Assembly: GCF_019649055.1 (NCBI RefSeq)
Contig: NW_026570227.1
Span: forward strand, 682,001-746,000
DNA from: Paramacrobiotus metropolitanus
Lineage: Eukaryota; Tardigrada; Eutardigrada; Parachela; Macrobiotidae
DNA length: 64,000 nt
Direction: 5' to 3'
Shown: positions 21,100-64,000 of the stretch, piece after piece
Numbering within the stretch: position 1 is the first letter of the stretch
How the letters are laid out: each line of letters begins with the position of its first letter
Position numbers and translations under genes: made by a program
Notes under the pieces: model-generated
Database searches by the model: none
What the model was told of the DNA's origin: nothing
Seen by the model: only the letters and a program-made list of their open reading frames with translations

Positions 21100-21439
21100 T
21101 GGTGAAACTAGCAAAAATTAAACAAATCAAACCAAACAAAAAAAAACTATGCACAGACTGAAAACACACCATCTAGTCCGAATTGCTTCTCAGCAGTTAC
21201 CAAGAAGCAAGCAGCATTACCACGCTGAATTTCACTACTAAAACGTTGCAACAGAAACTTCGTTGCGCGAACTTCTATGTTCTGTTGTATTTCTTCCCCT
21301 GGTCAAACTTACCCATGCGAATGTTTGGGCCCGCGGTCAAGCTCGGACTAGGACTCGGAGTACTAAAACCTGGACTTGGACCACACTTGGACTTCATAAC
21401 TTGGACTTGGACATCTAAATGAACTTTTCTTAACCTGGA

Positions 21440-24676: not shown

Positions 24677-24779
24677 TTTTATCCTGCAGAACGCTTGGCA
24701 CTTGCACCGAATACCGTTGCCACGATCTGCACAGCCAATGAAACAAACTTGTTGAACTGAATTTAGAATTTACATACTA

Positions 24780-28085: not shown

Positions 28086-28089
28086 CTCA

Positions 28090-35654: not shown

Positions 35655-36898
35655 AATAAAAAGGGTGCAAAAAGAGGTGCCTATAATGCACGGGAGTGGG
35701 ATAAGAAGGAACAGAAGTCATCCGAAGTGGTACCATCATCGGAAGAATCATCCGAAGACGATGACGAAGATGATGAAGACTTCCAAACACCTGGAGGTGG
35801 ATCGCCAAAGGATGACGATGATGACGACGAGAACGGTAAACCACCACCGTCGGCTCCGGCACCTCAACAGCAAGGCGAACCGGAGATACCGGACAAACAA
35901 CCGGAACCCAAGGAGAAGGACGGAAACAAATCCGCCGATAACTCCAAGGACGACGACGGAGGAGTATACGTCCCTCGCCACTACGGTCATCGGATATCAG
36001 TGACACCGGATTCCGATGAACAACCACTCCGTAACGAATGGAACGAGGACAGTAGGCATGAATTGCCGAACGACATTCCCCCGTTGGCCAACGTCAGGGT
36101 AAAATGTACCGGCATCAAGAGCGCCCAACAGCCGAAACCAAGCGTCTCCGAATACGATGCCGGATGGATGTACACATACGCCGCCCTGAAAGCCCTCGCA
36201 ACCCGCGGACCGAAATTCGCCACACCGAAAATCGCACATAAACTCCTCCAACATTGGAAGGTGAATGAATTCGAATGGCGACAAATGAGTATCGGCCTCG
36301 TCGGACGTTACTGCGACCTCGGATACTGGGGAGGAAAACTTATCCGGACGTACACCAGCTCAAAGCGGATGTACTATGAGTTCCCACCGGAGAAAAAAGA
36401 TCCGGCTCCTTCAACACACGAAGGATGGATACACGCCATTGAAGCGTGTATGGAAATGTCATGGCACCCGGACGGGATGACGCGCGGTGAACTCCTACAC
36501 CAACTGACGGCACGATTCGAGTTCGCCTGGTTTGCTAAAGAACCTCAACTGACGGATCCCAAGTACAAACCGAAGAGGGATTCGAAGAGGAAGGGCTACG
36601 ACCTGGCCGAAGAACTGGAATGGGTCTTAACGAAAGGACTCTCCCAAAACCGGTTCGCCTCAAGAACGGACTTTACTTCCCCAAGCCAAAGGTTTGTAGC
36701 ATGCAATCCATCAACCCACCGACATGGACACCTACCGAAGGAACGACCGGCCGCGGAGCAACAGAACGAGTCGCCCGACTCTCTCCAAGCGGATCGGCCG
36801 GAACCAACCGACCCTCCTACTCGGGAATGAGGAGACGCGGAAAGCGTCGGAGGAGTTGCAGAACCGACTACCTCCATAAAACACCGCAAAGATGTTAA
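35655..36898 (+). CDS. Retroelement unit A', tandem winged-helix-like protein
   Basis: The frame is open from 35655 without a proper ATG. A very acidic Ser/Asp/Glu stretch comes first, then two modules of about 75 residues: the first from WMYTYAALKALATRG to MYYEFPPE, the second from GWIHAIEACMEM to LYFPKPK. Each begins with a Trp-containing helix and ends in a Tyr-x-x-Pro strand, as a winged helix would. The second module's last strand is reached only after a -1 change at the short C-run near 36658; the frame then ends at 36898. The homologue is at 52061-53403. Confidence 0.6.
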
Positions 36899-37067
36899 TC
36901 GACCAACAGAAGTCGACCTACCTCATTCGGCCAACAGAAGTCGAACAGGCACCACAAAGGAGCCTTGCACCAGCTCGAGAACCGACCTGGCCCGACCGTA
37001 GTAATTATAGGGTGTAAACTTATAGGATGCAACCGAGAAACGGTTTGCTTAACTCTTACTTTGACAG

Positions 37068-37706
37068 ACCCGTACGGAGCCCTATACCAGGGAATGCTCA
37101 CAGTGTAATGACTATGCGACACGGGACAACAACCGACTCCCCTGCGCGCAGTGCATCATTTCCTTCACCAATGAACGGACTGAACTGATCGGACTACAAC
37201 CACGGGCTCAGGCAGCGGCACTTTACCTTAACGTTGTCGCTGGAAACTTGAGCGCGTACCGCTACCTGGCCGGACGAGAATCCTTAGTGGACCAGTTGGA
37301 AGCACACGAGCAGGACAATCTGGCCACCATCCAACGGCAACGAAGCGCGGACTTGAGATGGGAAAGAACTCGACCCCCAGTCTTAACAGACAGACTGTGG
37401 GAATACCGGCAAATCCAGGATGTGAAGCGGTAAATGGCGGATCAGAAGAAAATTAAGGAGGTGGACGAGAAGATCGCAACAATGCGAGTCCACCCACCTC
37501 CGACCTCTTATGAACCGGAGATAAAAATCCGACTTCCAGCACCCACACAGGGTCGCTCGGAAGCCGAACAGTTGATTCACAACATACGTGATGTCTACGT
37601 CGGGGATCCCCAACGACCATTGAAGGAAGCCTCGGTAAAGATGATGATGAATATGCCGGACGGAACTCAACAGATGGTTACCCTTACACCGGCAACGGAG
37701 GAATAG
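37068..37706 (+). CDS. Retroelement unit B', zinc-motif protein with internal TAA
   Basis: The frame has a stop just before 37065 and no upstream ATG, but begins exactly after an acceptor-like TTTGACAG, so a spliced subgenomic RNA is likely. It opens with C-S-Q-C-x13-C-A-Q-C. The minus-strand homologue has C-P-D-C-x13-C-W-Y-C. An alpha-helical stretch follows, TAA at 37431-37433 with ATG immediately after, and a further 90 codons to TAG 37704-37706. Unlike unit B on the minus strand it lacks an RS domain. Either the TAA is a mutation or the two halves are translated separately. Confidence 0.55.
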
Positions 37707-39254
37707 TTGACGGCAGTCAAACAAAGGGCTATGCCAGTAGTCACACAGGCTCGGCCAGCTGTTCCCCAGCAGATTCCTCAACCCGGAACTTCAACCCGAA
37801 CAATGGCTCCACCGACGACTCAACAGCAGTCACGTCGACCAGCCAGAGATCTTGCCGGACACGACCTCCGACATCGGATCGGCCAAGACGCTCGACACAA
37901 AATCGAGGAACAACGGGCCGTTATCCGAAGTGTCGGTATGGAACCAACCAGACCTCCACCAGGAAAACGAACTGGATCCGGAGAAACCGGAATCGGACTG
38001 GTGATCGACTCAACGAGGAAGTCGAAGAGGAACGTGGTCCCACCCGAAGAGCAACCGGATGCCCACATGGCAGAACCGGCGGTTGAAGTGAATGCCGAAG
38101 CGCAACCCGATGCTCAACCGGACCAGATGGACGTCGAAGTGGCCGACCAGATGGCACAATTACCCGAAGTCGACGTGCCAACCCGAGACGACCCTCGGTA
38201 CGACCTTGCCAGACAACAGGCAATTGAAGTCGTTATGCCACACCCGACCGAACGGACGAATTACATCATGACCACTATGGAGTATGAGGAACGACATCGC
38301 CCACAAGTATGGCGGATGGTAGAAAACCTACGACAGTTCCTCGTTCGATCCGGATACCAGACATTGGTTGAACAACAACAATGGAAACCGGACTTCAACA
38401 TGGACGCCCACACCAACAAGAACGTGGAGCATCCGTACACCAGAGCGAACGCCTTACTGTCAATGACTGACCCGAACTTGCTGAACATACCTTTGTACAG
38501 TCCGGACTGGACACGTGCAAGTCAACTTGGGGCTCGCGAATACGCCCATGACGAGCTGGAAGGTATGGCCCAGTTCTTCATCACTGACGCCCACCCGGCC
38601 TTCGTCATCACCGCAGCACGAGCAGCACTGGACTTGGTCCAATATCTCCCAGAAGGGGAGGTCGACATGGCTCCTGACGGTGTTACGGCATTCCTGCGAT
38701 ACATCTTCGCAGCGAGAATCGGCAATTACTTCTGCCACTACACATTGTACGGACTGTACCAGAACCAGCAGATACCAGCCGAACTCCAAACCATCGTGGC
38801 CCAACTTGGCACTCCGATGCGAAGCAGCATCCAAGCCGTCTGGTTACGCGACCTACTTTACACCCACGAACGTTACGCGGTGAAGTATGGCTTTAGCGAG
38901 GACTACATCGATCCTTGCGACGACGCAACCAGATTCATCAGCTGGTACCGAGAACACAAAGTTCTCCCCAGCGGATTTACGTCGCACCCATACGAATCAT
39001 GGATGTCAGACGCTTTGGCACCCGGCGCACAACCGTTTGCGCTGAAGCTTCGGAAACAAGCTGCCAAGGAGAAGAAGACTCGAGCTGAACGCTCCGGCCA
39101 GGAAACGGATGAGACAGACGACACGTCTCAACGGAGTGGCCCGGCGACATGTAAACCGTCGTTGTTACGTCCACACCACCGACATCGCCCCGACGACGAC
39201 CACGAAGATGACTACTTCGGCGGCGACCCGCCGATCAATGTCGAACTCGGATAA
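37707..39254 (+). CDS. Retroelement unit C', conserved helical domain
   Basis: In frame with unit B' and separated from it only by TAG; the first ATG is 8 codons in. A disordered Pro/Gln/Arg-rich N-terminus of about 170 residues precedes a globular, mostly helical domain. Motifs shared with unit C at 48938-50320: PNLLNIPLYSPDW / LNLLGVPLDTVD, AHPAFVITAARAALDLV / VNPAFKVLAARAAIGLV, and FLRYIFAARIGNY / WGQKIFAARLAHY. The tail is basic then acidic. Size, order and tails suggest a structural or nucleocapsid-like protein, but this is inference; no family recognised. Confidence 0.65.
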   Translation: MTAVKQRAMPVVTQARPAVPQQIPQPGTSTRTMAPPTTQQQSRRPARDLAGHDLRHRIGQDARHKIEEQRAVIRSVGMEPTRPPPGKRTGSGETGIGLVIDSTRKSKRNVVPPEEQPDAHMAEPAVEVNAEAQPDAQPDQMDVEVADQMAQLPEVDVPTRDDPRYDLARQQAIEVVMPHPTERTNYIMTTMEYEERHRPQVWRMVENLRQFLVRSGYQTLVEQQQWKPDFNMDAHTNKNVEHPYTRANALLSMTDPNLLNIPLYSPDWTRASQLGAREYAHDELEGMAQFFITDAHPAFVITAARAALDLVQYLPEGEVDMAPDGVTAFLRYIFAARIGNYFCHYTLYGLYQNQQIPAELQTIVAQLGTPMRSSIQAVWLRDLLYTHERYAVKYGFSEDYIDPCDDATRFISWYREHKVLPSGFTSHPYESWMSDALAPGAQPFALKLRKQAAKEKKTRAERSGQETDETDDTSQRSGPATCKPSLLRPHHRHRPDDDHEDDYFGGDPPINVELG

Positions 39255-39259
39255 GATCA

Positions 39260-42200
39260 GGTTCCCACATTGGAACCTGATCCCCCACTCGGAACATCCG
39301 AAGGGATCGAACATCGACCACAAAGGCCGATTATGGTCGAGAACCGACCTGACTGAGAAACAGTCCAGCTGAGAAACAGCATCGTCGAGAAACGACTTCG
39401 GAATAGAACGGACACCTTTTTCTTTCTTAAGTTTTTTTTACAGAAACCGACCAACCATGTTAACAGCGGAAGTCAACAATGACTACGCCGGATTCTTCGG
39501 TCTGACCCGGAAACGAGTGGTTAGACCTGGGTACTTCGGTCCTTTCACCTTACCGGTACGTCCCCCGAGGAATCCCCTGGAAAGAACTGGGCAAACTGAC
39601 CCCAGTTCCCCAGCACGGCAGGAGCAGATCGCTCGAACCACGCTCTGCTACCAGGCATGGACAGATCGTGAACCACATCTGCTAACAACAGCACATTGTG
39701 AACCACGTTCTGCGACCATCGGGGCCAACAGGAGCCCCAATCCGCGTTACATGGAGCCGCCAATAAGTTACATGGTGTTACATGGTGCCATCAACTACGA
39801 CCGCCTACGAACGGTATTCCGGCCAACCGACTCCGGAGCATCGACCGAGAGGTTTCGCTAACATGGCGTAGAACACGTCGCTGCGCGCTCTTCGTCATGT
39901 TTGCCGAGCACCCGTGGCCAACTAAGGAACCGGGTAAGCCGACCAGCAACCTTCACCATAGGTAACAGCGGATATCCTCAGCGGCACTGCCAACAGCGCA
40001 GAGTGATCAACCCCGATCACAGGAAACTAGGTCGACCACAAAGGCCGACCTTGTCCCCGCAACAACCATATAACTCTCGTCAACCGCTGAACCACGACCA
40101 GAACGGATCGGACAGGGAAGCATAAATGAAGACGCAGACCGCGCCAAGGATCACAATGGCTAAGTCGTACCGGATTCTCCGCTGAACCCAGAGCTACAGA
40201 CTCTGTACCTGGAGTCCAACCGACGTCTCCCCTGGAGGATATCGGACATAACCGCCGATTCACCGGTGTCCACGACTACGCGCGCTTCGAACGTGCTGTC
40301 ATTACCTGAAGAGGAACAACGACGGTGATTCGGCTACCGGTGTACCGACGACTCCGCCGCCAACCTGCTTCCCCATGTCCTCAATGGAACATCCTAGGCA
40401 GACCGTGTTAGAATACGCGACCTGCACCCCTTGACGAACACCGTTGACGAAGATCGTCTGTCCGCAACAGTGTCGGCCAGGTGTTCTGCGTCATCGGCAA
40501 AGAATCCCGTGGACTTTGGACGTCTACCCCCAACAGACGTGGCTAGGTGTCCCTGGTTTGCGACAAAGAAACGAAGAATTGGATCTGATACGACCTCAGT
40601 AACTTGCATGTGCATGACGGATTTAAACCAAAGAGGATGGTGAAAAGAGACCACAAAGGCTCTTTACCGCCGTCCGAAAGCATGATGCATGAGGAAGTAC
40701 TAGTCATTTGGCCAACAGACGCCACGGCAACATGCCATTGCTCAACATGGAGCGGGACTCTGACGCCTGAAGGCATTTCACTCGAGCCGACCAACCAGGT
40801 GACGCGCCGGGACTCGGACCCGTCCAACGGCACTTCGCTCGGATCGACCAACAGAAGTCTAGATCCGACCCAAAGTTCATGTCAGGAGCGCAGCCGCAGA
40901 AGAACGGAGTTGCGCTGCCGAATATCCTTCTGCCAGTCCGAACTGACCGAGGGATGTCCGAACACAAGAGACCCAGTCAACTGTGGCTGGAAGCACGGAA
41001 CATCCGAGAGTAAGTCGACTTGACGAGTGCCGACTAGCCCCACATTGGGCGTAACGGTATAAGTCGTTTTAACCGACCTCAAAGTCGGAGGTCGGAAGTG
41101 ACCAAACGAAGGTCGGATAAACGCGACAACAAGTCGGAACAGCAATCAGACGTCGGAAATCAACCTTCTCAGCGGAAGAATCCAGCTTTGGGACGGATGG
41201 AAACACACTTCATCCGACCTCGGGACGTCGGACATACCCGACCTTGGAATATCCGACCCCCGTCGGATCAGTTAGCCGACCAACATTGGTCGACTAGCTC
41301 AGTCAACTACGACGGAAGAGGACGGGGAATTACCTCGCGATGGACGAATCCAACCAAGGTCGACCATCGATGGATAGAATATCCGACCTTGAGTCGCACA
41401 ACACTGTGACCGACCATAGGTCGGATAACAACGGAACACATCGAACCACATGACCGAACGGAGGTCGGAAATGTACGACAACAAGTCAACGGAGTAACCA
41501 GAGGTCGGACATCGATCTCCAAACGGAAGAACTCCACTTTCTGACGGCGAGAAACACAACTTAGCCGACCTAGGAATATCCGATCTCACTACGGATACCA
41601 TTATATCCGACCTCACATCGGATAACGGTATGACCGACCTTGAGTCGCCCAACATTGTGCCTGACTACAGGTCGGATGGCAACAACATGCATCGGATGGA
41701 AGTCAACCGGACACTCCCACCGAAGATACCAAGGATTTCCGACCGGACCTTCGAGCCAGTTCGCATCGGATAACTTCATAACCAGGCTCGTGGTAGCAGA
41801 TTTTACGGTTTAACCGACCACTTTTGAACGGAACTGCTGTACTAGACGACCACAAAGGTCGCATGACTTAAGTATAGCTTTGTCCGACCTGGACTTCGGA
41901 GTTCGGAACTTAGCCGGATCTCCGAACTACCGGTCAACTTACCGGTAGTCCGACCTTGGTCAAACCGACCTCGGTCCAACTCCCCCATTTAGAGAGGATG
42001 CTTCGGCATTTGCAACTGCAACGGTGCCTCTCTCTTCCCAACGGACGGATACGAGTCGGAAGTAAGTGTTAACCATGCTTATCCGACCTCGGTGATTTTA
42101 GCCGGTTACGACGGGTAACCCGGGAACCGACGCCCCGGACCCAACTTACCGGATGAGATTGGACAGGAGACCCCGTGGCAACTTAAGCACCCCGTGGACG

Positions 42201-42660
42201 TCATCCTAGTCGGAATAGGACCCCGGACAGATTTTTGCATTTATTTCTTAGCATTTTTCCTAACAAACGGAATTGTATTTTTCTAGTTCGATCTCTTTGA
42301 CAGATCTGTTTTGTAACCTTTTTGCTCACTGGAATTGTGAATAAAACTTTATTTTTCTTTCGCGCTGTATAACTTTTATTACATTTTCATTGTTCTCCGA
42401 TGCCACCCGACGCAAAGAAGCCAGCCAACAGATGCATCACCGGCCCAACGAAACGCACGAGCAACTTCCGGATTTCTCGGCCGTGAGCTGCTTGCCTCTC
42501 ACGGGTTCGGAAGTGGATGAAGGGACGGTCAACAAGACACCGGACTCCCAGCTGCCAGAGGACGCGTACCGGCGACCCCACACTGGGTCCAACCGGAGAG
42601 TTGTGCAGTACTGGTGCGGTACTGAGTCGGAGCATCCTTCGCGGGAGCTCGGATTCCCGC
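39260..42660. repeat. Non-coding repetitive 3' region of the truncated element
   Basis: Dense degenerate repeats of CCGACC / GGTCGG, most regular at 41040-41780. The motif ACCACAAAGG recurs at about 36951, 39319, 40036, 40651 and 41850; CCAACAGAAGT recurs at 36903, 36929 and 40849. Frames here are short and not conserved. Confidence 0.7.
42340..42345 (+). terminator. Polyadenylation signal of the truncated element
   Basis: AATAAA in the context GGAATTGTGAATAAAAC. The minus-strand element has TTGGAATAAAAT at the equivalent place (48240-48245), with a shared ACAGATCT block upstream, so the 3' processing region is conserved. Confidence 0.55.
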
Positions 42661-43129
42661 CCAGAGGCATGTCAGGCACATGAGCCTGTGCGTGGTGCGT
42701 ACGGCTCAACATGGAGCGTACTTGCACCCACTTACATGCCATATTGCCTCTCTCTTGTACGTACGTGTGACGCTGCACTGCACTCATCCACTGAAGTGGA
42801 TATACCGCACAGCGCACACACTGAGCGTACTTGCTCTCTCGTCCCCCTTTCGCAGTACTACTCAGCGTTCATACGCTCGCGTTGGGTAGAGTCCAGTCTG
42901 CGCATCACACAGCTGATTCACGTCTTGGCCTGCATCACCACGCACGTGTTGGCCGCCAGGATTCAATTGACACTTACTCGCCAACGAGACGCATCAAGAA
43001 CCCTTTTGAGCATACACTTTGCTATTTGGCCACACGTGCCTTTGTTCTTTCTTCCTGCTATTACGCAGCATTGTCAGCCTTTATAGTCTAATAAAGACAG
43101 CATCGTGAGCTCCTCGCCACACTCTGTTA

Positions 43130-44185
43130 CAATAGTCCAAATTAGTAAATCAGATGCAACATGGAAATTAACGGAGCACCCCATTAAAATAAACAACGTC
43201 TTTAGTCGGTGGTTTGGGCGCCGGTTTTTCTCTTCTAGCCAATTAGCTGGTTGCAAGCTCAACGCCTGACCAGCATTCAATACTGCCATTCGTTTGAAGC
43301 AATACGGCTCTGTATTTTGGTATGCTGTTAGGAACTGAGCGCAGTTAGTAGCCTGATGTAATGTCTAATGATTAATATCTGATATGTACATAATATCTGA
43401 TACGTACAAGCTTGTCCCGTAATTTCCATCGTAAAGGTACGGCTAGCGCGAAATTTGCGCTTGAAACGGTGGCCACGTCACTACGCTTATCTGATTGCCT
43501 AAATCCGCTCCGTAGATGGATTGTCCATTACCACACCGACAGTTTCTTAGCCACTTTACGCCAGGCAGTTACTGTTATTCTCATTGAATTATATGGCGTG
43601 TACCAAGCCCCCAGCCAGCCAAATGCATGTTACGTGTGGCGTGGCGCGCCGTAGTACGGATTTACGCGGAACACGTAAATTTGTAATGTTCGCTGTTCTG
43701 ATGCGATGGAAATTACGGGACAAGCTTGTACATATTTCAAAATACCCATAACTGTAACTGTGCTGTACGTTGTCAGCTGTAATTTCTGTAATGTCCCAAT
43801 GGGTACAGCATACCAACGATTTTGCACACTGGTGCCACTTAGTCGCTCGTAAGATTTACTTCATTTTGACCAATCTAAAAGAACGAAAATTATGGCAACG
43901 TAAAAAAAGAACAATCGTTTTAAAGGTGACCTTAAGCAATTTTATTTGCTGCAGCGTAAAAAGGAATTAGTTACTGAGTTACCAGCGCTAGTCAAGGACT
44001 CAAGGTGGCAGATTTTGGTACAGTGAGCCGTATTTGGATACTGTATACTTGGTAACTAGCCAGTCTAGACTCGCAACTACAGTAATCTTAAGATAAAAGA
44101 GCGATTGTCAAAACGGGTTAACCAATACTTTTTGCTATGAAAGCATGTATGGTTCCAATTGTTAACATTTTTCCAGTCAAAAATG
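43130..44185. other. Non-coding; short inverted pair
   Basis: ACAAGCTTGTCCCGTAATTTCCATCG at 43407 is mirrored by CGATGGAAATTACGGGACAAGCTTGT at 43703 (shortest shared core GTCCCGTAATTTCCATCG). The pair of about 26 bp encloses 300 bp and is probably a small MITE. A similar CTTGTCCCG occurs near 645. Nothing else recognised. Confidence 0.5.
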
Positions 44186-44194
44186 TTGACGTTA

Positions 44195-44840
44195 GTAATA
44201 CGGCACACCGACAACTTGCTGGCCGACATCTTGCTGGCCGACAAAATTTCGACCCGGCGATTTATTGAAACAGGAAATCGCTGAACGACAGTTTGCTGAT
44301 ACCGACGATATGCTGACAACATTTTGTTGAATGACAGAATGTTTACCCTACAACGTGCTGACTTACTAAATTACTTACTTATTAACAATTAATGTTGACT
44401 GAGATATGAACAAACTAGTTATTCGTCAATTTAAATCAGCAAGTTGTGATAGTTGGCAACGTAGCCGGTTAGCAAATTGTCGATCGACGAAATGTGTTAG
44501 AATTTATATTATGATATTATTATAGTCACGGGAACAGAAACCGGAAGCGTCGCACACACTGGTGTCAGTTCTGTTATTGTTCTGTTCATCAATGTTATAC
44601 AAGCAGGTTGCTTATATAGCACACGGTACATTCACGGTATTAGTAAGTTACTGCACCTAAACATCTGATAAACAAGGGGATTGGTGACCTGGGTGCACCG
44701 TACACTCATAGATCAGTTAGTAAGACAATGGTCATAGTTCACAAGTGCATGACACATCATGAGTGTATATTATATTGGTAATATAATTTCTGACAAAATG
44801 AAAAACTCATAGAGTTATCGTGCTACCGGCAGCGGCAGCC
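44195..44840. mobile_element. Deleted non-autonomous copy of the MULE-like family
   Basis: The left tip CGGCACACCGACAACTTGCT (44200) and arm units to 44345 match the left end at 16.7 kb. Reversed units (AATCAGCAAGTTGTGATAG, AGCAAATTGTCGATCG) at 44435-44490 and the tip TAGAGTTATCGTGCTACCGG at 44810 match the right end at 18.2 kb. The transposase exon is absent. Confidence 0.6.
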
Positions 44841-45155
44841 GAACACCGTAGCTTGTGAGTGAAGCTGCTTTCAGTTATCAGCGATTTCTGGGTGTGTGCT
44901 CGTGAAATACCAAAAAGCAGCGCGATGTCCCGTGAACGCTGCAAAAATGTTTAACAAAATTTACTGACGTCACTAACTACGCAGTTACTGTCGATGATGT
45001 ATTACTAACGGCTTTTTGAGGCATTTATATGGTATAATATAGTTTGCAATAATTTTTAATCTTGTCTTTGCTGATTTTTATATGCTGGTGATGCTGATGA
45101 GTTTGGGATTGTAACATTCATTTTGGAATTTGCAGCACTTTCTTTCTAACTAAAA

Positions 45156-46645
45156 ATGGATACCAAGCGGCGAAATTTTGGTAGTACCTGCGAGTACAGC
45201 CTTAACGAGAAAGGTTTTATTGGAAGAGGATCCTTTGGTCATGTCTACGAAGCAGAAATTACAGAGAGGGGTGACTTTAGAGGAGCACAGGTGGTGGCCG
45301 TTAAAGTTGTGCAACAGAAAACTGAAGGTGGTTTCCTCGAGCTTCCGGATGGACAAAAATGGCTGATGCGAATGGCAGATGTATTAAATCTGAGAAACAA
45401 AAATGTTGCTGCCTACCACAAGGTGACGGTAATCGAAGGAAAAATGAGATGTACTGTACAGATAATGATGGATTACTATCAAAGTAAGTAGCGACTATAA
45501 TAAAGTCTTTTGGTTGAATGCAATAATAAAATTAATGAGTTAGCTCGAAATTCTTTGTCAATTATATTTAGGTGATCTGTCATCACTCCTGGACAGCTAT
45601 AAGAAGGGCAACCGTTTTCTCGGTTTGACAGATGCCATCCGGTATATATTCAATATAACCGAAGGACTGCACTACTTACATGGAAAAAATATTATTCATG
45701 CAGACTTAAAGCCGGGAAATATTTTTGTCAACCAGCATGACGAGCTGTTGATTGGTGATTTGGACGATCACATTCACATGCACCATAGTATCACTGTTTC
45801 GAATGATATTTCGCAATTACGTGGTACGGCGCGCTACATGTCCCCAGAAATGTGTCACAAGTCCTTACTGATAGATCAAGACTGTCTCGTTGGACGTAAA
45901 ACTGATATCTGGAGCCTTGGCTGCATTATGCAGGATATAACTGACTGTGTGTACGGAATAAGAACAAAATGGCTTCACAAAAAAGGTGAAAAAATAGAGG
46001 TGGAAAGTGGTTCCGAAAAGGTTTCTGGGAACCACTTTGTCATACTAATCATCAAAGGTTACGTTCCGTTTATTAACGATGCCGTACCCAACGTTATCGC
46101 CGCATGGATGCGACACTGTCTACGAACGGACAGCAGGGACAGGATAACTGCCAGTGATTTAATCGATTTACTGCAGTATACTATTTCCAGTACAGTTAAC
46201 GTCGACGCCTTAACCGTAATCGGTGAAGATGACGCCTTAACTGTTATCGAAGATCGTAGTGAAGAAAGAATTGCCGCAGAAGGGGTTTTGGAAGAGTGTG
46301 ACAGCAGAGTGACTGTGGAGGAGGTAGAGTTCGGAAGTAACTGCCAGTACGAGGCAAACCAAAACGAGTTTTTAGGACAAGGAGGCTTTGGACACGTTTG
46401 CAAAGCAATAGTCACAACGCGAGGAAATTATACTGGCGAAGACAACGTGGCCATCAAGTTCGTGTACAATTTATTTGGCAAAAGCTCTGTGACGGTTGTG
46501 CCTCGTAAAAAACTGACGACGCTTCTTCGACGTATGCATCTGCTAGTCCAGTTCCGGCATAGCAATCTGGTCACCTACCACAAAATAAGCATTCATAACG
46601 GAGAAAGGGGTCCGTATATGAAGCTTATGATGGACCGGTATTACG
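45156..46645 (+). CDS. Tandem protein-kinase gene with truncated second domain
   Basis: Exon 1 45156-45483 (donor GTAAGT), exon 2 45572-46645 (acceptor TATTTAG), phases 1/1. Domain 1 is complete: Gly loop GRGSFG (residues 23-28), Lys in VAVKVV, catalytic loop IHADLKPGN, Mg motif region LIGDLDD, YMSPEM in place of APE, then a C-lobe to WMRHCLRTDSRDRIT. HRD is HAD and DFG is DLD, but the catalytic Asp, Lys, Asn and metal Asp remain, so activity is plausible. A linker with a duplicated DALTVI motif leads to a second domain (GQGGFGHV, VAIKFV, hinge MMDRYYG), which ends at a donor GTAAGT exactly where the C-lobe exon should follow. The next AG leads to a stop. Relationship: Ser/Thr kinase of STE/MAP3K or NEK-like type, not certain. 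Confidence 0.75.
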
Positions 46646-46659
46646 GTAAGTAACTGGAT

Positions 46660-47790
46660 CCAACATTAAATGATTACATTAAACTGGGCGGATTATGTGC
46701 CGTATATTTAGTTATCAGCTGACCTCTTGGCATGGCGGTACTAAAGAGAAGGCGTACGCGCGCCATTGGTGACGTCACAGTAAAGGAAGCAGCCCGTTAC
46801 CGCAGTGTTTTAAGGCTCGTAGGCTCCATAGGCATAAACTACTATGATAAACGCACTTCACTGAGTTCACTCCCCGTGCTGTGGGACCACCGAGTTATAG
46901 CTAAACAGAAAGAGATAAAAATTTCAAATTTTTATAATGCAAATGTCTTCAGTAATAAAGGCGAAGTGAGATTTTTAAAATGTTTTCTAGCTGGGATTAC
47001 AGCGTGATTTGTAGCTACTTCTACTTCTGTTTACCAGCTTCTTTCCATCCAGCTCCCAGCCTCCCTATATCCCACAGCTTGCAAAAAAGAAATATCCATG
47101 GCATTTTTATCGAATTTCTAGCAGTTTGCCCGGTCAATTTGTCCGTTGGCTTCGCGCTTCGTGCGAGCTGATTACCCGCTCGAATTTAACAGTTATGTAT
47201 AAAAATGTCGTCTCCCCAAACAACATCTACAAACGTCATCTCGAAACAGCCATTCAGAAATTCATCAACACTTAAGTATCTTAATTCGTACAAAAGTCAA
47301 ACAATTTTAGACTTCGCCCCCCAGGGGAGGGGGGCAAAGCGTCCCCCAGGGCGGCGTTCATCAATCATCATTGATTTTCCACTATTTCAGTCCCCGATTT
47401 CTAAGTAAGCCGAGTTCGCATACAAGGTCCGTGCAACGGTCGGTCCAGACCGCACTACCGTTGTGTGCTAACTGCATGCACTCTGAGACTTTCTTAAAAC
47501 ATTAAATCGAATTCAATTGCACACATAATATACAAGGAAAACTTTTGAATTTTTTTGAACTTTCTCTCAGCTATAGCCCGCTCATTGTCAACCTCTCAAA
47601 CTCAAAGTCGCTTAAGGGATTTGGTCCGGTACATAGCACCAAATTCATATACATCAACGGCAACTTTCGCTGTCGCGCACCCCCAAACACTTTTTTGCAT
47701 TGCTTTATGATTTTTTTTAGCCAAAGGATTCGTACACATAGCCTATTATAACGTGGTACTCAGAATGAGTCCAGGACAGAGATCCCCACT
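46660..47790. other. Non-coding; GC-run hairpin
   Basis: CGCCCCCCAGGGGAGGGGGGC at about 47317-47338 contains self-complementary C/G runs. The frame at 46732-47007 has no splice support or similarity and does not continue the kinase. Nothing else recognised. Confidence 0.35.
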
Positions 47791-48239
47791 GACAGGATCC
47801 TGCGTAGCGTAATATGCTGAGAAATCTGGATAAATGCGCAACGCACGACATCCACTAGCATACGTACACTTTATTGAGTGTGCAAATCAACTGACTGAAC
47901 AACTGAATGAACAACTGGCAAATCTGCCAAGCGAAGAGCCAAATCCACGCTCATCGCAGCGCACATAGGCGCGCCCACACAAGGCAAACACAATGGACGG
48001 CTTTAGCCGCCAACCAATCAGAAGAGACACAACACAGACACGTCATCCGCATAACGCCACAGGCGTGAGGGTGGACGTGAGTACAGCCATGGCTCACATG
48101 CCTCTGGGAGGGATGCCGAGCTCCGTTCGAGGCTGAAGTCCATCTCCGCGTTGAATCCAATCGTTTGGCGGACGGCCTGTGTGTGCTCATAATGCTAATA
48201 AAAACATCATCTCTTTTAGTCCATTTTATCACATCTAAT

Positions 48240-48245
48240 TTTATT
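48240..48245 (-). terminator. Polyadenylation signal of the giant element
   Basis: Minus-strand AATAAA in TTGGAATAAAAT, downstream of unit C; matched in the truncated element at 42340. Confidence 0.5.
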
Positions 48246-48249
48246 CCAA

Positions 48250-48930
48250 GTACACGATGTGAAAATAAAGAGATCTGTAAAAAAATACTATAACATCAAC
48301 AGTAAAAACAGATCAACAGAAGTATTTAAGCAATTCCGTAGACTAGGATCCTCCACTCAGGTCACAGGTATCCTGTCCACCGTTAGGAACTTTGGCCCAT
48401 TCCTGCTCCATTGAGCAACTTCGCTCCGCTTGAGCATCTTGCGCATTACAATGCGACTTCATCACGTCAGATCCGCTTGAGAATCAGGTGCGTATCATCG
48501 TACGACTTATGAATACTGCTTCATCTTTGGAATATTTGCGTATCTATTGTACGACTTCGGTCAGATGAGATCCGTATGGGTCATGGAGGGACGTCTTGTA
48601 GACAAGCGAAGTTCGCTTCCTCCCTGGTGAGGTCATCTTTTTAGATGATTTGGGATGTGCGACATCGTAATAATTCATCATCCATATGTCATGGAGGAAC
48701 TTTTAGTCGTTTTAATATCGACTTTTCAAGCTCATTTCAGCTCGCCTCCCTGGTAAAGTTGTTCATCTGTCGCACATCTCATCCTTATTACAGAGAGCCG
48801 GCAAGTTATACCGTAGCAACTCCGTTTAGAGATCCGGCTAATTACCGTCGATTCTCACACTTAAAGATGAGCTGAGTTTGATGGATCGTAAGAGAGCCGA
48901 CTTTTAAGCCGTAGCATCTCCTTTTTAATC
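48250..48930 (-). other. 3' non-coding region of the giant element
   Basis: Contains repeated GTCATGGAGG and CCTCCCTGGT blocks (48590-48630 and 48685-48760) separated by ATC/GAT-rich sequence, but far less repeat than the equivalent 3.4-kb region of the other copy. No frame. Confidence 0.45.
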
Positions 48931-48937
48931 ATTCGCC

Positions 48938-50320
48938 TTATTCCATCATCTCGTTCGACTCATCTCCGTCGCCACCATCTCGCGGCTGACGTTTCTTCGT
49001 TGCCGTCGGCTGGTTTCGGTCGGAAGTTCGATCCACAGGTTCTGTCGATGCTGCTTCTGCAGCTCGTCCCGCTTGTACAACTCGGACGGCAACATGACGT
49101 GGACCACGACCCTTTCCTTGGCGACTTCGTTTTATCGCCTCGAGCCGATGTCGTGCATCATCTTCCTCCAGCTGCAAGTCCCGGTTTCGAGGATCTTCAG
49201 CCAACCGTTGTCTGACATCCTCATAATGATCGCGAATCTGCTGATTCTTAGCAGCTCGTCTCCCGGGTGCGTTGGGGACTTGAGGTGGTGCCTGTTGTTT
49301 ATGTCCGTGTAGATGCTCCTTGAAATACGTATGGACATGATCTTTCGGTTCAGCATATTGGGTGTCCACCGTCTCGCGGATTCGGTCGAGCATCTCCTCG
49401 TAGTTAGTGTCAAAAATTGTCCGCAGATTATTGTCTTCAAATCTGTTCTTAACACTCTTCAGGTCATCATCCGCTTTCTTAGCGATCGCCTGGTGTTTCG
49501 CGGCTGACCCCATTTTGGCTGCTTTATCCCGAAACACTAACGGGACTTTGTTCTTCATCATATCCGAGCTCAATTGGCCAATTGACGAGTAATGCGCCAG
49601 TCGTGCAGCGAAGATCTTCTGACCCCACGTTCTTGCGTCATGGCTGGTAGGATCAACTACCAGGCCAATCGCTGCTCTCGCTGCCAGCACTTTGAATGCC
49701 GGGTTCACATGTCGTAATACGAACTGCGCAACATATTCTCGTCGTTCCTTTATTTCTTGGTATTCGAATTGGGTCCATCCCGTGGTATCGACGGTATCCA
49801 ACGGAACTCCCAGTAGATTCAAGTCCAACAGACTCGGCAAACCACACTGTCTGATTGGCGTATAGTATGTATTCGCATCTTCAGTTGTGATTTCCAATCG
49901 CCCAAGCCTGCTTTCCCGAATTTCTTCCGCGTAATTCGAATCGATGAGGAACTGTCGCAGGTGCTGCAACTGAGCCAAGATGATTCCTGACTGTTCCGAT
50001 TCAATGTCGAGTCCTAGATATCGGACTATTTCAGCTCGCTGGTCTTCTAAATCATCCATATTAAACGTTTTTCGGATGAACTGGGGACGACGTTGCTGGT
50101 TATTAAACCGGGACGGTTTATTCGTTGGGCGACGATCGTCTTCTCGTCGATGTTCCGGTTCTCGTCTATCTTCCTGTTGACGTCGTTCTTCGATAATACG
50201 ACGAACGTCCTGGTCACGTCGCGGCGGTGCCTTACTCGCCGATGTCGACGGTTGAAGATCGTTGTCAAGGATCACCTGTCTTTTATGGACAACATTATCT
50301 TGTGGTATTGATGTGTCCAT
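48938..50320 (-). CDS. Retroelement unit C, conserved helical domain
   Basis: 460 residues from ATG. The N-terminal 90 residues are Arg/Glu-rich and disordered. A helical domain of about 230 residues follows, carrying the motifs shared with C' (LNLLGVPLDTVD, VNPAFKVLAARAAIGLV, KIFAARLAHY), then a charged stretch and a tail that is basic and ends acidic (GDGDESNEMME). In frame with unit B, three codons after its TGA. A nucleocapsid-like or chromatin-binding role is inferred from the charge layout. No membrane segment is visible, so it is not an envelope protein. Family unknown. Confidence 0.7.
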   Translation of the reverse strand: MDTSIPQDNVVHKRQVILDNDLQPSTSASKAPPRRDQDVRRIIEERRQQEDRREPEHRREDDRRPTNKPSRFNNQQRRPQFIRKTFNMDDLEDQRAEIVRYLGLDIESEQSGIILAQLQHLRQFLIDSNYAEEIRESRLGRLEITTEDANTYYTPIRQCGLPSLLDLNLLGVPLDTVDTTGWTQFEYQEIKERREYVAQFVLRHVNPAFKVLAARAAIGLVVDPTSHDARTWGQKIFAARLAHYSSIGQLSSDMMKNKVPLVFRDKAAKMGSAAKHQAIAKKADDDLKSVKNRFEDNNLRTIFDTNYEEMLDRIRETVDTQYAEPKDHVHTYFKEHLHGHKQQAPPQVPNAPGRRAAKNQQIRDHYEDVRQRLAEDPRNRDLQLEEDDARHRLEAIKRSRQGKGRGPRHVAVRVVQAGRAAEAASTEPVDRTSDRNQPTATKKRQPRDGGDGDESNEMME

Positions 50321-50329
50321 TGGTTCATC

Positions 50330-51769
50330 TCACGGTAATGTGACAAAAAAGTGGTTCCACAACATGAATAGTGGACAGCATCCGAGTGTATTTTGGTGAG
50401 CTATCTTCTCGTTCTCCACTAGAAGATCGTTTAGTTGGCAACTCGAATGTATTGTAGAATGCCGCATCCTCCTGCCAGCACTTGTCGTATGGGTCGGGAC
50501 TTCGATTACGACGTTCTCGTCAGGTCGTCGCTCAGTATTATCCAAATGTGGTCTGCGTCGCGCGCCAACTTCGACGACTTCATCTCCGTGGCGCTCCCAT
50601 CCTCTCGGGCCACGCTGATCTCGATCGCGAGATCGTTCACGGGATCGATCATCTCGTTCGTTATGATAGTCCCGTGTTCGTTCACGAGAGTATTCCCTCG
50701 ATCTCTCATTTCGGAAATCATAGTTCCTCTCGCGGGAATATTCACGTGATCTTTCGCTTCTTCGGGTAGGTGATCGAGGTCGCACAAAGCCCTCATCTCG
50801 TTTGAAGCTTTGGAATGCTTTCATCACTTCGGCCTCTCGTTGACGCGACTTTCGAGCTTCTTCGGTCATCTTCTCGATGAGCATCTGTGTCTCAGGTTTC
50901 GGTGGTTCACCTCGTTCCAACCTGAGCTTCTCACGCAGAAGAGCTTCAAACAAGTCTTTTCGAATGTCCAGAGGATTTTTGATCAGCGCATCAATCTGTA
51001 TCGTTAACGATTGAACTCTGGCGCTTGCGTCATCTTCGTTTAACTTGGAGACGGTTATTGGCGCTTTTCCTTTTTGTGCCAATTTGGCCCGATGTTCACG
51101 CGCTACTGGTTCCTCTGCACGTTTACGGTTGGCTACTGCTTCAGCCTCCAGCTCTCGTCGTCTTTTATCCTCCGCTTGCAATCTTGCGGAATCTGCCTCG
51201 AACTGTTTCCGATATGCGTCCGCTTTATCATCTTGTGGTGGTTCAAAAGTGACATCCCAACCAGGTTCGTTATTCCTGATGGCCTGACGATAGCGGTCTT
51301 CAACTAACATCTTTTCTCTTGGTGGAACCGTTTTCCAAACTTCCGCAGAAGTAAGAGCACGGAAGACGTCCCTATTCCCACGGATCGCTTCCGTGTACGC
51401 CACCAGTGTTCGGCCAGATTCTTTAAAGATGCAGTACCAACATGGGTTTTTCCCGTTATCAATTTTACTGTTGCGGATACAGTCCGGACATTTTGGATTA
51501 TAGCCCGTAAACTGATCAATCTCCGGGTCGATCGGTTGGTTATCTGATGGTAGCGCCTGACTTGTGGACGTTGCTTGACTTCTCGCTGGCATAGGTGCTG
51601 CTTGGCTTCGTGCCGCCAACGGTGCCGGTTGATTTGTTGACCTGGCCTGGATCTGCTTTGTCATCTGTACTTTCGGGTTGGCTTGACTTTTTTGAGCCAT
51701 CTTTTCCTTGAATCTGTAACCAGAACACTTTATTTGACATCTCATCATCTCATCATCTCCATATTGCAT
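50330..51769 (-). CDS. Retroelement unit B, zinc motif, coiled coil and RS domain
   Basis: 479 residues. After a Gln/Ala/Ser-rich leader comes CPDC-x13-CWYC, then helical sequence homologous to B', a Glu/Arg/Lys coiled coil (ADSARLQAEDKRRRELEAEA), a conserved block SARVQSLTIQIDALIKNP, and a long RS/RE domain (repeated SREYSRER and similar) like that of splicing factors. The ATG at 51769 is followed after 16 codons by TTCTGGTTACAG, a possible 3' splice site; B' also starts at an acceptor-like site, so B and C may come from a spliced RNA. Stop is TGA. Confidence 0.7.
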   Translation of the reverse strand: MQYGDDEMMRCQIKCSGYRFKEKMAQKSQANPKVQMTKQIQARSTNQPAPLAARSQAAPMPARSQATSTSQALPSDNQPIDPEIDQFTGYNPKCPDCIRNSKIDNGKNPCWYCIFKESGRTLVAYTEAIRGNRDVFRALTSAEVWKTVPPREKMLVEDRYRQAIRNNEPGWDVTFEPPQDDKADAYRKQFEADSARLQAEDKRRRELEAEAVANRKRAEEPVAREHRAKLAQKGKAPITVSKLNEDDASARVQSLTIQIDALIKNPLDIRKDLFEALLREKLRLERGEPPKPETQMLIEKMTEEARKSRQREAEVMKAFQSFKRDEGFVRPRSPTRRSERSREYSRERNYDFRNERSREYSRERTRDYHNERDDRSRERSRDRDQRGPRGWERHGDEVVEVGARRRPHLDNTERRPDENVVIEVPTHTTSAGRRMRHSTIHSSCQLNDLLVENEKIAHQNTLGCCPLFMLWNHFFVTLP

Positions 51770-51774
51770 GAAGT

Positions 51775-52055
51775 CCTTCTTATCTTTTTACGCCTATTTT
51801 AGGCTATTCCTATACTGAGCTGAGACCTTCCTAGCTCATAACGCCCTTCTTATGCCTGCCATGTCTTAAGCTCAGTCGCCTAATCTGACTGACTTTTCGC
51901 CTCTCGTTTGGCATCTATTTAGCACTTTCGCTAAGTTTCTCCCAATTGTGACTTTTAACGCTGATTCCCGTTTGATCGCCTTCTTTTAATATAAACTGAT
52001 GGTGTTCTTCTGTGATATGCGGTGGACCTTCCTAACCGCATATCACACATCTCTT
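51775..52055 (-). other. Short spacer between units A and B
   Basis: AT-rich with CTTAC/TAGGC-type blocks and several stops in all frames; may hold the branch point and pyrimidine tract for the proposed acceptor of unit B. Confidence 0.35.
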
Positions 52056-52060
52056 ATTCA

Positions 52061-53420
52061 CTAGTCCTTCTGCGATGTGTCAGCTGGATCAGCTGACACA
52101 GACTCAGTCGACTTCAGTTCAGTTTCATCAGTTTTCGAATCGTTCGGGGTGATTGCTATTGGCTTCGGATCAGGTTCAGCTGCCTTCGTCTCAGTTGGTG
52201 GCAGCTCCTGCGGAATGGGATCAGTTTTTCCGGATGTCGCTGCCTGTGCCGTTTCGTCTGTTTGCAGCGTTTCATCTGACGTTTCTTCTGGTACGGAGTA
52301 GATTTTATCATCCTTGATCTCCAACATATTCTCGTCGGCAAGGCTTTCAACTGCCTTCCTGATCCATTCGCGATCCTTTTCAATATTGAATTCCCCTAAC
52401 TCGTAGTTCACGGCGAAGAAATTCGATAGATCGTCCCATGTCACTCCGTTAGTTCCGCCCAGTCTTGGTATCGCTGCATCAGTCATAGCGATTTTCCAAA
52501 ACTTCAGGTCCATCTTTAGCCGGGGGGTTCGTGTCGGCTGTGGCGGCAAATAATATACCCATTTGTTGGTTTCCGAATAACTGAAGCCTAATTTCACTTC
52601 TTTGTAGGCTCGTTTAGTCATCCGGTCGAAGCTGTTTCCCGATAATTTCAGTAGTCTATTGGTGCACATGGCCGATTTGAGCTCCCTGTGACCCATCGTC
52701 TGGTCCGGTTGATTTGCAAGGAACCGTTTAAGTTCGCACCAGATTTGGTTGGCGTTATCCAACGGTATTCCGAGCATATACTCTCGGTCTTCTGATTTCG
52801 CTCCGGTGTCCGAACCTTCTGTTGAGTCCGTCACAGGTCCTTTCTCATCGATTGTGAGTTTCGCCATTGAACTTGACGATGATTTTGTCGATTTCGGTTC
52901 AGTGCTCTGGGAGGGTGCCGAGTCCGCTTTGTTGTCTTTTGGCTTGCTACTGCCAGCTCCACTGGTCTTAGGTAGCGCGAGTCCAGACGTCTTTCGTCTT
53001 TCACGCATGGCTGCCAGTTCAGCCTCGCAGTGCGTGATTTGGAAGAAGCACGATCTGCCTGTTCCAAGTCTCCTTGAGAAGTATGCTCTGTAGCTTCACC
53101 CTCGTTTATGGGATTTTTGGCCAAATTTCCCGCTTCCGCGTTCAGCTTTAATGTAACTGCCGTTTCAAAGTCCTTATCCTCTTTTCGAGGTCTGCCTCTT
53201 CGCTTTTTCGGCTGAACTTCGTTTACCCCATCTTCTGTCGTTTCAAGAGCACGTCGCGGTTCACGCTCTGACTCCACATTTTCCGTTTCAGGTAGCAGAG
53301 GTGGTTCGGAAAATGATTTACTATCATTTTGCGGTTCTCGCTCTGCCTCCAACTCGTTTTGAGGCTCCCGCTCCTTTGCCAATGGCTTATGCCAAGGTTT
53401 CAACCGGTCTATGGAGACGA
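52061..53420 (-). CDS. Retroelement unit A and integrase tail, with one frame break
   Basis: Two overlapping frames. The first (from 53403 back) begins with the end of the integrase GPY/F-type module (VVSIDRLKPW, RLKP being typical), then a Glu/Pro-rich tail with an AT-hook-like KKRRGRPRKED. The second (53008-52061) carries a Ser/Lys-rich linker and two winged-helix-like modules: NANQIWCELKRFLANQ to KWVYYLPPQ and LKFWKIAMTDAA to KIYSVPEE, matching A'. The change between the two is of the -1 type at AAA 53038-53040; another -1 change at the C-run 53443-53445 separates it from Pol. Without them A would be the C-terminal part of one Pol-A polyprotein. The tail is Thr/Glu-rich and acidic. Confidence 0.65.
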
Positions 53421-53423
53421 CTT

Positions 53424-56400
53424 TCAGATCCGCCTCTTTATCGGGTTCTGTTCGATGACTTCAGCTTCGTTCACTCTTGGGAAGCTGAGAATTTTCCATA
53501 CTTTATCGTATTTCGCCTTAAAATCCGATTGAGTTTGTTTCTTCCCTTGTTTCGTATCTTTGGGGAGTCTGATCAATACGAGATCGCCCACTTTGAAGTT
53601 CGGTTCGGATTTCTTCTTGTTATAGATTTCAGCATTCTTCTCATACGCATCTTTTATGTTGCATTTCGCAACTTCTTCGGCGAAAGTCAAGTTCTTTTTC
53701 ATGGTCTCCACCCATTCGTCTGGAGTACCATAATCATCCGGTAAGTTCGTTCTGGTCACCACATCCTCTGGCATGGTCATCTCTCTTCCATGCAGCATGT
53801 AATATGCCGAGTAGCCAGTTGTGGCGTGTACAGCTCTATTCATCCCTGAGACCACATATGGCAGGTACTTATTAAATTTCCGTTCATTCCCTGCCTTCAT
53901 GTACTGTGCCAGGCCATCTCCGATGATCTGCATCTGCCTTTCAACTTGGCCCTGGCCTTCAGGGTGATACGCTGTTCCGAACGTGTGTTTTATTTTGAAC
54001 ACGTTGGTGACTTTCGATAAAACTTCCGCTGTGAAGTGTCTTCCACGATCCGTATGCAGGATGTGCGGTGCACCATGTACCAATATCACATGCTTTACGA
54101 AGACTTTGGCGAACTCCTTCGCTGTCGCCGTCTTCATTGGTACCGCTATCACATATTTTGTCAGCTGGTCGATGAAGACCGCTATATACTTATATCCACG
54201 CTTCTTAGTCGGTAATAACGGTCCTTTCAGGTCAGCGTACACTCGGAAGAAAGGATGTCCCACTTTAATCTCCTGCAACTTTCCAGGTGGACACTTCCGT
54301 GGTGTCTTGTGGAACTGACATCCTTGGCATGCAAGTATATACTTTTTGACGTCCGTACTCATTCTGTCCCAATAGTATCGCAGTCTGATAGCTGCCAGCG
54401 TCTTTTCAAATCCAAGATGGCCTGCTGACTTCTCATCATGCAGCGCATGGATGATCGCTCTCCTCATTGACAGTGGTACGACGTACGTCCTTTCAAGTCG
54501 GCCTTTGTTATCTTTTACCCGATATAGGATGCCGTTCCATAACTGGTAATGGACTTCGAACTTCGATCTCGTTTCGGCATCTGGCAGGTGCTCCAATTCA
54601 TCGATGATCATCGCAAGGTGAGGGTCTTTCAGCTGCTTATTTCGCAATTGGAGATTCGAATCATCTACTTCTTCCTCATCTCCTTGCAAGTTAACGATTC
54701 GTACAGTTGCTGTACTTAACTCATTCCAATCCGAGATGACTTTGCATCTTGGCAGCGGTTTGTGCCGATTATTCATCTTTTTGGGGAACTTCAGCAGCTT
54801 TATTGGGCACTCATTTAATGCCTGCGCAACTTTATCTGGTTCCCAATGATCATCTCGATGTTCACTTCGCTCGCTAGGCTCAGCTCTCTGAGCTGCCGAG
54901 TCAGGTCCAGATCCACTTTTAAGACGGTTGACGTTGATCGATGTCTCAGCCGACTCTTTCGCCGTAACTGAGTTGATCTTTATTTGCTTTTCTCTTTCTT
55001 CGGCTATCTGAACGAACAGCTGCCAAACTTCGATAGCTGGTTCTTTTATATCGTACTCTTTTTTGATGTCCTCAAAGTTCGGAATTTCATCAAACTCTTC
55101 ATCATGGCATGTCGGACCTTCGATAGGTGCTCTCGATAGAGCATCCGCGTTATCGCAGTACTTTCCCGGTTTGTACTCGATCTTGAACTGGTGGCCTTGT
55201 AACGCCATAGCCCATCTCGTTAATCGCGGATTCATGCCGACTTTGTTCGTTTCCGATCTCAACAGATTCGTCAGTGCCTGATGATCAGTTCGTACGGTGA
55301 ACTCGGAGTAGTCGATATACGGTTTAAATTTTCTGACGGCAAATACGACCGCCAGACACTCCCATTCAGTTACACCGTAGTTCCGTTCAGCTCCGTGTAA
55401 GACGCGGCTCGCGTAGGCAATTGGATGACCTTCTTGTGACAGTACTGCTCCAATTCCTTCTTTGCTCGCGTCGCATTCGATGACTGTCGGTTTAGCTGGA
55501 TCGAATTTGGCCAACACTGGACCTTCACATAGCAACTTTTTCAAGTTCTCAAATTCCTTTGTGTGAACTTCTGTCCAGTCCTTTCGCACATGTTTATCAT
55601 TTCGTAGCAACTCGTATAAGTGACAGGTATGCTGTGCGTAGCCAGCTATGAACTTCCGGTAATAATTTGCAAGTCCAAGGAACGATCTCAGCTGTCGTTC
55701 AGTCTGAGGTCGCTTGAATTCAGACACTGCGGTGATCTTTTCGGGATCCATTCGAACTCCATTTTCGCTGAGTATGTGACCCAGGAATCCCATCTCCCGC
55801 ATTCCGAATTCACACTTTGTCGGTTTAATGGTAAAACCTGCTTCAACCAAACTTTGGAGGACGTTCCTCATGTTTTGCATGAAAATCTCCCAAGTCTTTC
55901 CAGCAAAAATGACATCATCGATGTATCCAAAGACGCAGCCCTTTCGCTTCGCCTTGGACAAAACTCTGTCCATGCAGAGTTGAAACGTTGCAGGTCCGTT
56001 ACAGACTCCGAATGGCATCCTTTTGAACCGATACATGCCATCTTGAGTCACGAATGTCGTTTTATTGATCGACTCCGGATCCATGGGAATTTGCCAAAAT
56101 CCACTTTGCAGGTCCATTTTCCCATAGTATTTGTTGCCTGCGCACGCATCCAGCAACTCATCCGGGTTCGGTAACGGGTAGTTATTCTTTTTTGTCAGCT
56201 TGTTTAACATGATGTAGTTGACGCAGAACCTGGTGCCCATTGTCCCGTCACCGTTCTTTTTCGCTGCCAGCACAACTGGAAAACTCCAGTCGGCATCTGA
56301 TGGCTCGATGACGTCCTGCGCCAGCATCTCTTCAATATGTTTCGTTATGAACTCTCGGCCTGTCCAGCTGGTTCTGGCGGGGTTGCATTTTACCGGTTTC

Positions 56401-61324: not shown

Positions 61325-61367
61325 GATCAGTAGGCTCACCGGCGCCTACTGATCTTGGCCGTTTCCC
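61325..61367 (-). promoter_or_regulatory. Programmed -1 ribosomal frameshift signal, gag-pol
   Basis: Read on the minus strand. Slippery heptamer GGGAAAC at 61367-61361, placed in the gag frame as G GGA AAC. A 6-nt spacer (GGCCAA) follows, then a perfect 11-bp stem GATCAGTAGGC / GCCTACTGATC (61354-61344 and 61335-61325) with an 8-nt loop. The stem contains the gag stop TAG (61348-61346). The pol frame is -1 relative to gag and is open through the heptamer. Heptamer class, spacer length and stem all match known retroviral-type -1 sites. Confidence 0.9.
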
Positions 61368-63985: not shown

Positions 63986-64000
63986 GCTCTCGTTCAGCTC

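Follow-up and report, generated by a model that had tools for sequence, protein, structure and literature searches.

Extra genes behind pol usually encode envelopes or enzymes. Cer1, a long terminal repeat (LTR) retrotransposon of Caenorhabditis elegans, encodes CERV, a non-envelope protein with a cysteine-rich stretch that is made from spliced RNA; it is a single protein from five exons, shares some peptides with GAG and is needed for export of the unspliced Cer1 genomic RNA (PMC10309623). LTR retrotransposons of bdelloid rotifers have a family-specific non-envelope ORF3 behind pol that encodes a DEDDy exonuclease or a GDSL esterase (PMC5408684), and orchid Ty3/Gypsy elements carry an N6-methyladenosine (m6A) RNA demethylase domain (PMC9289625). 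Here we describe a 64,000-nucleotide stretch of Paramacrobiotus metropolitanus DNA (contig NW_026570227.1, positions 682,001 to 746,000; the window, from whose first letter all positions are counted). It holds a Ty3-type element on the minus strand with two extra genes, A and BC, behind pol, and a diverged plus-strand copy of the extra-gene region. We favor, with a probability of about 0.4, the reading that these belong to a family of giant Ty3-type Paramacrobiotus elements behaving as a "complex" retroelement, in which A and BC would be regulatory and no envelope would be encoded.

The minus-strand element is longer than 15.9 kb, running from 64000 to about 47745, and consists of gag, a pol with protease, reverse transcriptase (RT), RNase H and integrase, and the extra genes, followed by a noncoding stretch and then a presumed LTR. 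The gag open reading frame (ORF; 61346..64000), the start of which lies outside the window, has one CCHC knuckle, CQNCGFGNHNAQNC, at residue 743 of its visible part. Its N-terminal part is presumably coiled-coil-like and the following part capsid-like, both labels being ours by eye, and the capsid part gave no significant match against Pfam. The pol ORF (53424..61268, 2614 amino acids) contains the four Pfam domains in the order protease, RT, RNase H, integrase at residues 569-662, 1673-1833, 1898-2024, and 2264-2436. The Ty3 Gag-Pol polyprotein was its top match in the PDB (E 3.6e-88), with caulimovirus-type and retroviral RTs ranking lower. Judged by domain order and PDB ranking, the element is of the Ty3/gypsy (Metaviridae) type. 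The pol frame is open up to 61436, so pol overlaps the end of gag. A perfect 11-bp hairpin, GATCAGTAGGC-GCCGGTGA-GCCTACTGATC, coincides with the stop codon of gag (61325-61354, minus strand), where the two frames overlap by about 90 bases; it is possibly a frameshift or read-through signal. In addition, IPVPEA is repeated four times between the protease and RT (58750-59160, minus strand; residues 708, 762, 783, and 827), and P0010, a relative of Pol, has IPVPE six times.

The closest relatives of Pol were P0010 and P0011, both from P. metropolitanus (89% across the aligned part), and P0010 matched the window pol at 77% across 2442 positions. The alignment of P0010 runs along 60539-53436 in a single frame and along 53481-52981 in the next, so the reading frame of the minus copy changes close to where Pol ends. 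This tail in the other frame (52981..53481, minus strand) matches residues 2404-2561 of P0010 at 44% and contains RGRPRK, which we take to be AT-hook-like. Because P0010 continues past the window pol stop in the other frame, the ORF at 52831-53403 is read as Pol tail. A start of gene A at 53403 was ruled out by the same alignment, in which the stretch upstream of 53008 is frame-shifted Pol tail, and the single A unit that the original prediction had extended to 53403 was shortened. The last 125 residues of P0010 had no counterpart in the window, so some DNA may be missing from the minus copy where Pol meets A.

Gene A thus delimited spans 52061..53008 on the minus strand (315 amino acids) and has relatives in P0008 and P0009. 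A structure model, made for the minus-copy A only, and a fold look-up placed one winged helix at about residues 81-158 (52535..52768) and a second, linker-histone-like, at about residues 164-241 (52286..52519). On this basis, gene A is predicted to encode a tandem winged-helix protein, the second domain of which resembles the linker-histone fold. No mutual likeness of the two domains was detectable by profile. The Pfam linker-histone model gave no match to window A, and among five members it gave one score, for P0008, that stayed below the cut-off (13.1 versus 22.4 bits, E 0.12). Sequence searches of the PDB with A and BC returned acidic low-complexity or chance-level matches, or none.

Many metaviruses carry env behind pol, and the location of the extra genes would suit an envelope. 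However, no membrane-like segment was present (the highest 19-residue Kyte-Doolittle mean was 1.24 across seven window pieces and eight relatives), and A has a winged-helix model. An envelope was ruled out for the parts seen, and we consider it very improbable that the extra genes encode one, in agreement with the earlier proposal of non-envelope genes behind a Ty3-type pol.

BC is encoded on the minus strand in two parts. The first, formerly B (50330..51769), contains a CxxC-x12-CxxC motif at 51431-51490 and an arginine-serine (RS)-rich stretch; the second, formerly C (48938..50320), was delimited by its ORF, relatives, and family profile. P0002, P0003, P0005, and P0006 each have B-like and C-like sequence on a single chain, and the junction is also covered by P0004, so B and C are best read as one protein and not as two genes. 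At the junction of the minus copy, residues 27-81 of P0004 match 50349..50510 at 64% in frame -3. That BC is one protein, split here by a frame change in the minus copy or by stops in the plus copy, appears well supported by these alignments. Where a three-gene module had been proposed, the relatives show two genes, A and BC, and the cysteine spacing given as x13 is x12 in both copies; CxxC-x12-CxxC is present in minus B, plus B, and P0002. The minus BC family is RS-rich, with 16 RS/SR dipeptides in window B. In the structure model of P0002, only the blocks 61-150 and 171-200 reach a predicted local distance difference test (pLDDT) score of 54-79. A fold look-up for BC returned weak, loose matches to helical structures, most of them where model confidence was low, and was not used.

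The plus copy starts abruptly inside a gene. Its A-like unit (35690..36830) matches residues 330-473 of P0007 at 35736-36161 (71%), and base composition shifts at about 35.7 kb, where the copy begins; it is apparently 5'-truncated, starting inside A. Plus BC (37065..39254) matches residues 56-779 of P0002 end to end at 73%, has CxxC-x12-CxxC at 37095-37154, and is interrupted by in-frame stops at 37431-37433 and 37704-37706. An end resembling a splice acceptor lies at 37067, and P0002 has a different N-terminus. With window pol, P0010, and P0011 as queries, the plus strand of the window yielded no pol match, and P0042 gave only an acidic 22% match there. The long ORFs of the original prediction were recovered at 48938-50320, 50330-51769, and 52061-53008 on the minus strand and at 35655-36830, 37065-37433, and 37707-39254 on the plus strand; its placement of the module after pol was borne out for the minus element but not for the plus copy.

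The two C units aligned at 27% across 180 positions by tblastn (E 2e-11), a score reached by none of 1,000 shuffles, and comparison of the two C families by hhalign gave a probability of 98.4 (E 6.8e-15). We regard their homology as firm. Homology of the B units is supported by tblastn (E 7.9e-5 and 7.0e-4, one per direction) and by shuffling, in which 1 of 1,000 reached the score; the family-profile comparison intended for B aligned C parts and was not used for B. The tail of Pol was no more like plus A than shuffled sequence was (326 of 1,000 reached the score), and for C against A, an unrelated control, the number was 423 of 1,000. The unit order is alike in both copies, with sequence support for B and C. 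The gene order of the minus element is well supported, and so is the homology between the BC units of the two diverged copies. The claims that A, B, and C are common to both copies and were kept across deep divergence were borne out at least for BC, with its second copy and five P. metropolitanus proteins, and were not supported for A at the sequence level. Those five proteins were the only matches at an E of 1 or better in a C profile search of about 5.8 billion proteins, in which 8000 candidates were scored. For IMG/VR, 67 stretches fitted the pattern of C relatives and none was confirmed. A had three relatives.

Presumed 3' LTRs lie at 47745..48098 in the minus element and at 42670..43141 in the plus copy (on their respective strands), each with its end set by eye. 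Their starts are common to both copies, with 30 of 35 bases identical (E 5e-06), a point in favor of reading the plus copy as the 3' end of an LTR element as well. When the 3' regions of both copies were aligned over a greater length, the score barely exceeded those of shuffled sequence (581.5 versus a largest value of 575.5 among 20). No LTR pair was found by direct repeats in 34000-64000 or by self-comparison of the whole window, beyond which the 5' end of the minus element extends. By eye, an acceptor-like ...ACAG/ATCT followed by AATAAA stands upstream of the presumed LTR in both copies, at about 42300 (plus) and 48270 (minus), an arrangement that would suit splicing of the 3' region.

These observations bear on whether A and BC could be host genes, or genes of other mobile elements, that were captured once and are dispensable, the plus module being a separate gene family and not an LTR element. 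The lack of any plus-strand pol match in the window would fit such a history, as would the lesions in both window copies and the location of the listed relatives of A (three) and BC (five) on different contigs, where linkage was not seen. However, the unit order is the same in both copies, the presumed LTR start is common to them, loop families (described below) occur in the gaps of both, and the residues of C that were kept at deep divergence suggest constraint. We consider this explanation unlikely.

The noncoding gaps contain repeated inverted sequences with a common center. CCACAAAGG occurs five times in the 64 kb, always on the sense strand of the plus element and always in noncoding gaps, against an expected count of 0.52; none of 100 shuffles reached five. 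Hairpin 1 (36945..36967) lies in the gap between A and BC, and hairpins 2 to 5 (39311..39333, 40029..40051, 40644..40666, and 41843..41865) lie in the 3' region. Each of the five folds into an ACAAA loop with CC/GG as the closing pairs, and four are closed by 4 to 6 Watson-Crick pairs of differing letters. Hairpin 5, the weakest, has an unpaired outer stem and 3 bp paired just outside the core. Folding z scores of the five were -4.2, -2.4, -2.0, -2.0, and -3.0. When the copies were aligned, 90% of cells were paired (2 of 500 shuffles were as high) and in four of six pairs both partners had changed (12 of 500 shuffles), a pair count that is lowered because one alignment row sits one base off. 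Covariation was 0.533, equaled in 4 of 500 shuffles, and every slid control was lower. A covariance model trained on these five copies recovers them, by construction, at an E of 7.5e-06 or better; its next match (E 0.33) was a GAGAAC-ACAAA-GTTCTC hairpin within plus C. A second loop, CCAACAGAAG, also with complementary arms, was seen on the plus strand at 36899-36945 and about 40850-40880, and CAACAGAA has three copies in the plus noncoding gaps, two of which were counted as hairpins.

On the sense strand of the minus element, a different center, AGGAAGGTC, has three exact copies, closed by 13, 6, and 5 bp. Two lie in the A-BC gap, at 52011..52047 (13 bp; z -2.9, from a slice that cuts the stem) and at 51816..51838 (6 bp; z -1.47, unremarkable alone); the third, at 57399..57417 (5 bp; z -3.0), is inside the pol coding sequence. 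The 3' gap of this element holds two three-way junctions of the same shape, at 48684..48757 (z -3.97) and 48576..48631 (z -2.49) on the minus strand, with identical ends and differing arms. Families of eight-letter loops in the gaps exceeded 500 of 500 shuffles in both elements. The plus gaps had four such words, two of which are one loop, and the minus gaps had two that are one loop, the largest family being equaled in 3 of 500 shuffles; seven control stretches had none or one. In the plus copy, the 3' region had a mean folding z of -1.91 and the A-BC gap one of -2.70 (three windows), compared with three controls at -1.17, -0.83, and -0.33. Means for the gaps of the minus element, -1.36 and -1.08, were not clearly below coding controls. 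No known RNA family matched at an E of 1 or better in 35600-64000.

A center that stays fixed while its complementary arms vary points to a protein-recognized loop in RNA and away from a DNA operator. Inverted repeats look alike in DNA and RNA, and A is predicted to be of a DNA-binding type, so the repeats might be DNA sites, such as operators for an A dimer. An operator would nevertheless be expected to keep its arms, which here vary in compensating pairs around the fixed center, and the plus 3' region folds in excess of its controls. We therefore rate DNA sites as quite improbable.

In the complex-retroelement reading that we favor, the length of the element and the location of the extra genes behind pol mean that these genes probably need spliced RNAs and that the unspliced RNA would need help to leave the nucleus. 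A would bind DNA and either drive the transcription of the element or handle its DNA in chromatin. BC, with its Cys motif, RS-rich stretch, and presumably helical C part, would be a nuclear ribonucleoprotein protein translated from spliced RNA; our guess is that it recognizes the fixed-loop hairpins, mostly in the noncoding gaps, and helps the unspliced RNA, which is very long, to be exported from the nucleus or packaged, much as CERV serves Cer1. The hairpins could instead be read by Gag or by a host protein. A more specific and more doubtful form is a complex retroelement, not one of the vertebrate retroviruses, with two-part nuclear control of its own, in which a linker-histone-like tandem winged-helix A would act on element DNA and a Cys/RS protein would read the families of fixed-loop hairpins, with protein and loop having co-diverged between two lineages of a single genome.

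The same features could suit structural roles. A and BC may be components of the particle or nucleoprotein, such as an extra capsid, a nucleocapsid, or a DNA-condensing protein, with the hairpins as dispersed packaging signals for recognition by Gag or BC. Repeated stem-loops with a common loop, as found here, would suit such signals, winged-helix domains are able to condense DNA, and BC is strongly charged both ways (window B has 92 basic residues and 77 acidic ones). On the other side, a Gag bearing a CCHC knuckle is already encoded by the element, and the RS-rich stretch would better suit nuclear RNA proteins. A particle role is, in our view, not probable.

Several results weigh against regulatory A and BC genes that were kept in two lineages and act through hairpins. 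For A, tblastn found nothing in plus A at an E of 1, 227 of 1,000 shuffles reached the score of the two A cores, and hhalign of the A families gave a probability of 0.5% (E 0.12), although the aligned stretch is collinear. The fold look-up rows for domain 2 of A tie with other winged helices, and the A tail is acidic (6 K/R versus 18 D/E). For BC, the C profile relatives number only five and come from a single species; P0003 to P0006 as annotated lack the Cys motif, P0006 beginning downstream of the motif position; and the P0002 model is poor (mean pLDDT 38.9) and gives no support for RNA binding by BC. As for the hairpins, these were first spotted by eye and then tested on the same sequence, one of the three exact AGGAAGGTC copies lies within pol, AGGAAGGTC with one mismatch is not above chance (13 versus 10.8 expected), and six- and seven-letter loop families showed no excess in the gaps.

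Other features of the window lie outside the two modules. Two gene pieces in inverted orientation, presumably kelch-like, were noted at 20302-21276 and 27110-28093 (78% identity across 1010 positions). By eye, ORFs resembling protein kinases, along with a second, partial unit of this kind, occupy 45150-46653 on the plus strand, and an ORF at 23435-24769 on the minus strand has a THAP-like zinc-finger start. A minisatellite of 20-base units, in about 48 copies, spans 3656-4621.

If the favored reading is true, the element family would represent an independent origin of retroviral-style regulation, and two diverged protein-RNA pairs in one genome would provide a test system in which specificity can be compared in vitro. 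Among the papers listed on Paramacrobiotus and retrotransposons, tardigrade gypsy elements (with passages of PMC11071193), extra ORFs with a winged helix, ORF3 in elements lacking env, Rev-like accessory genes, and linker histones in connection with LTR elements, none described the module, and no paper on dispersed stem-loops with a shared loop was found; this literature covered few subscription papers. Domain 2 of A is predicted to share the winged-helix fold of the linker histone H1/H5 globular domain. Unlike a linker histone, A has an acidic and not a lysine-rich tail, is in tandem with another winged helix, and goes unrecognized by the Pfam linker-histone model, for which even its best relative scores below the cut-off. 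The orchid elements are likewise of the Ty3 type with a gained RNA-acting domain, but this is a known enzyme domain, in plants, unlike the tardigrade genes. The bdelloid rotifer elements also have extra non-envelope genes behind pol; their ORF3s are enzymes, whereas the tardigrade element combines a protein of predicted winged-helix fold with a Cys/RS protein that has no assigned fold. CERV and BC, compared by description only, are both element-encoded, non-envelope proteins with a cysteine-rich stretch. The cysteines of CERV are spaced differently from the CxxC-x12-CxxC of BC, and the tardigrade element has a predicted tandem winged-helix partner and hairpin families, which were not seen in the passages on CERV.

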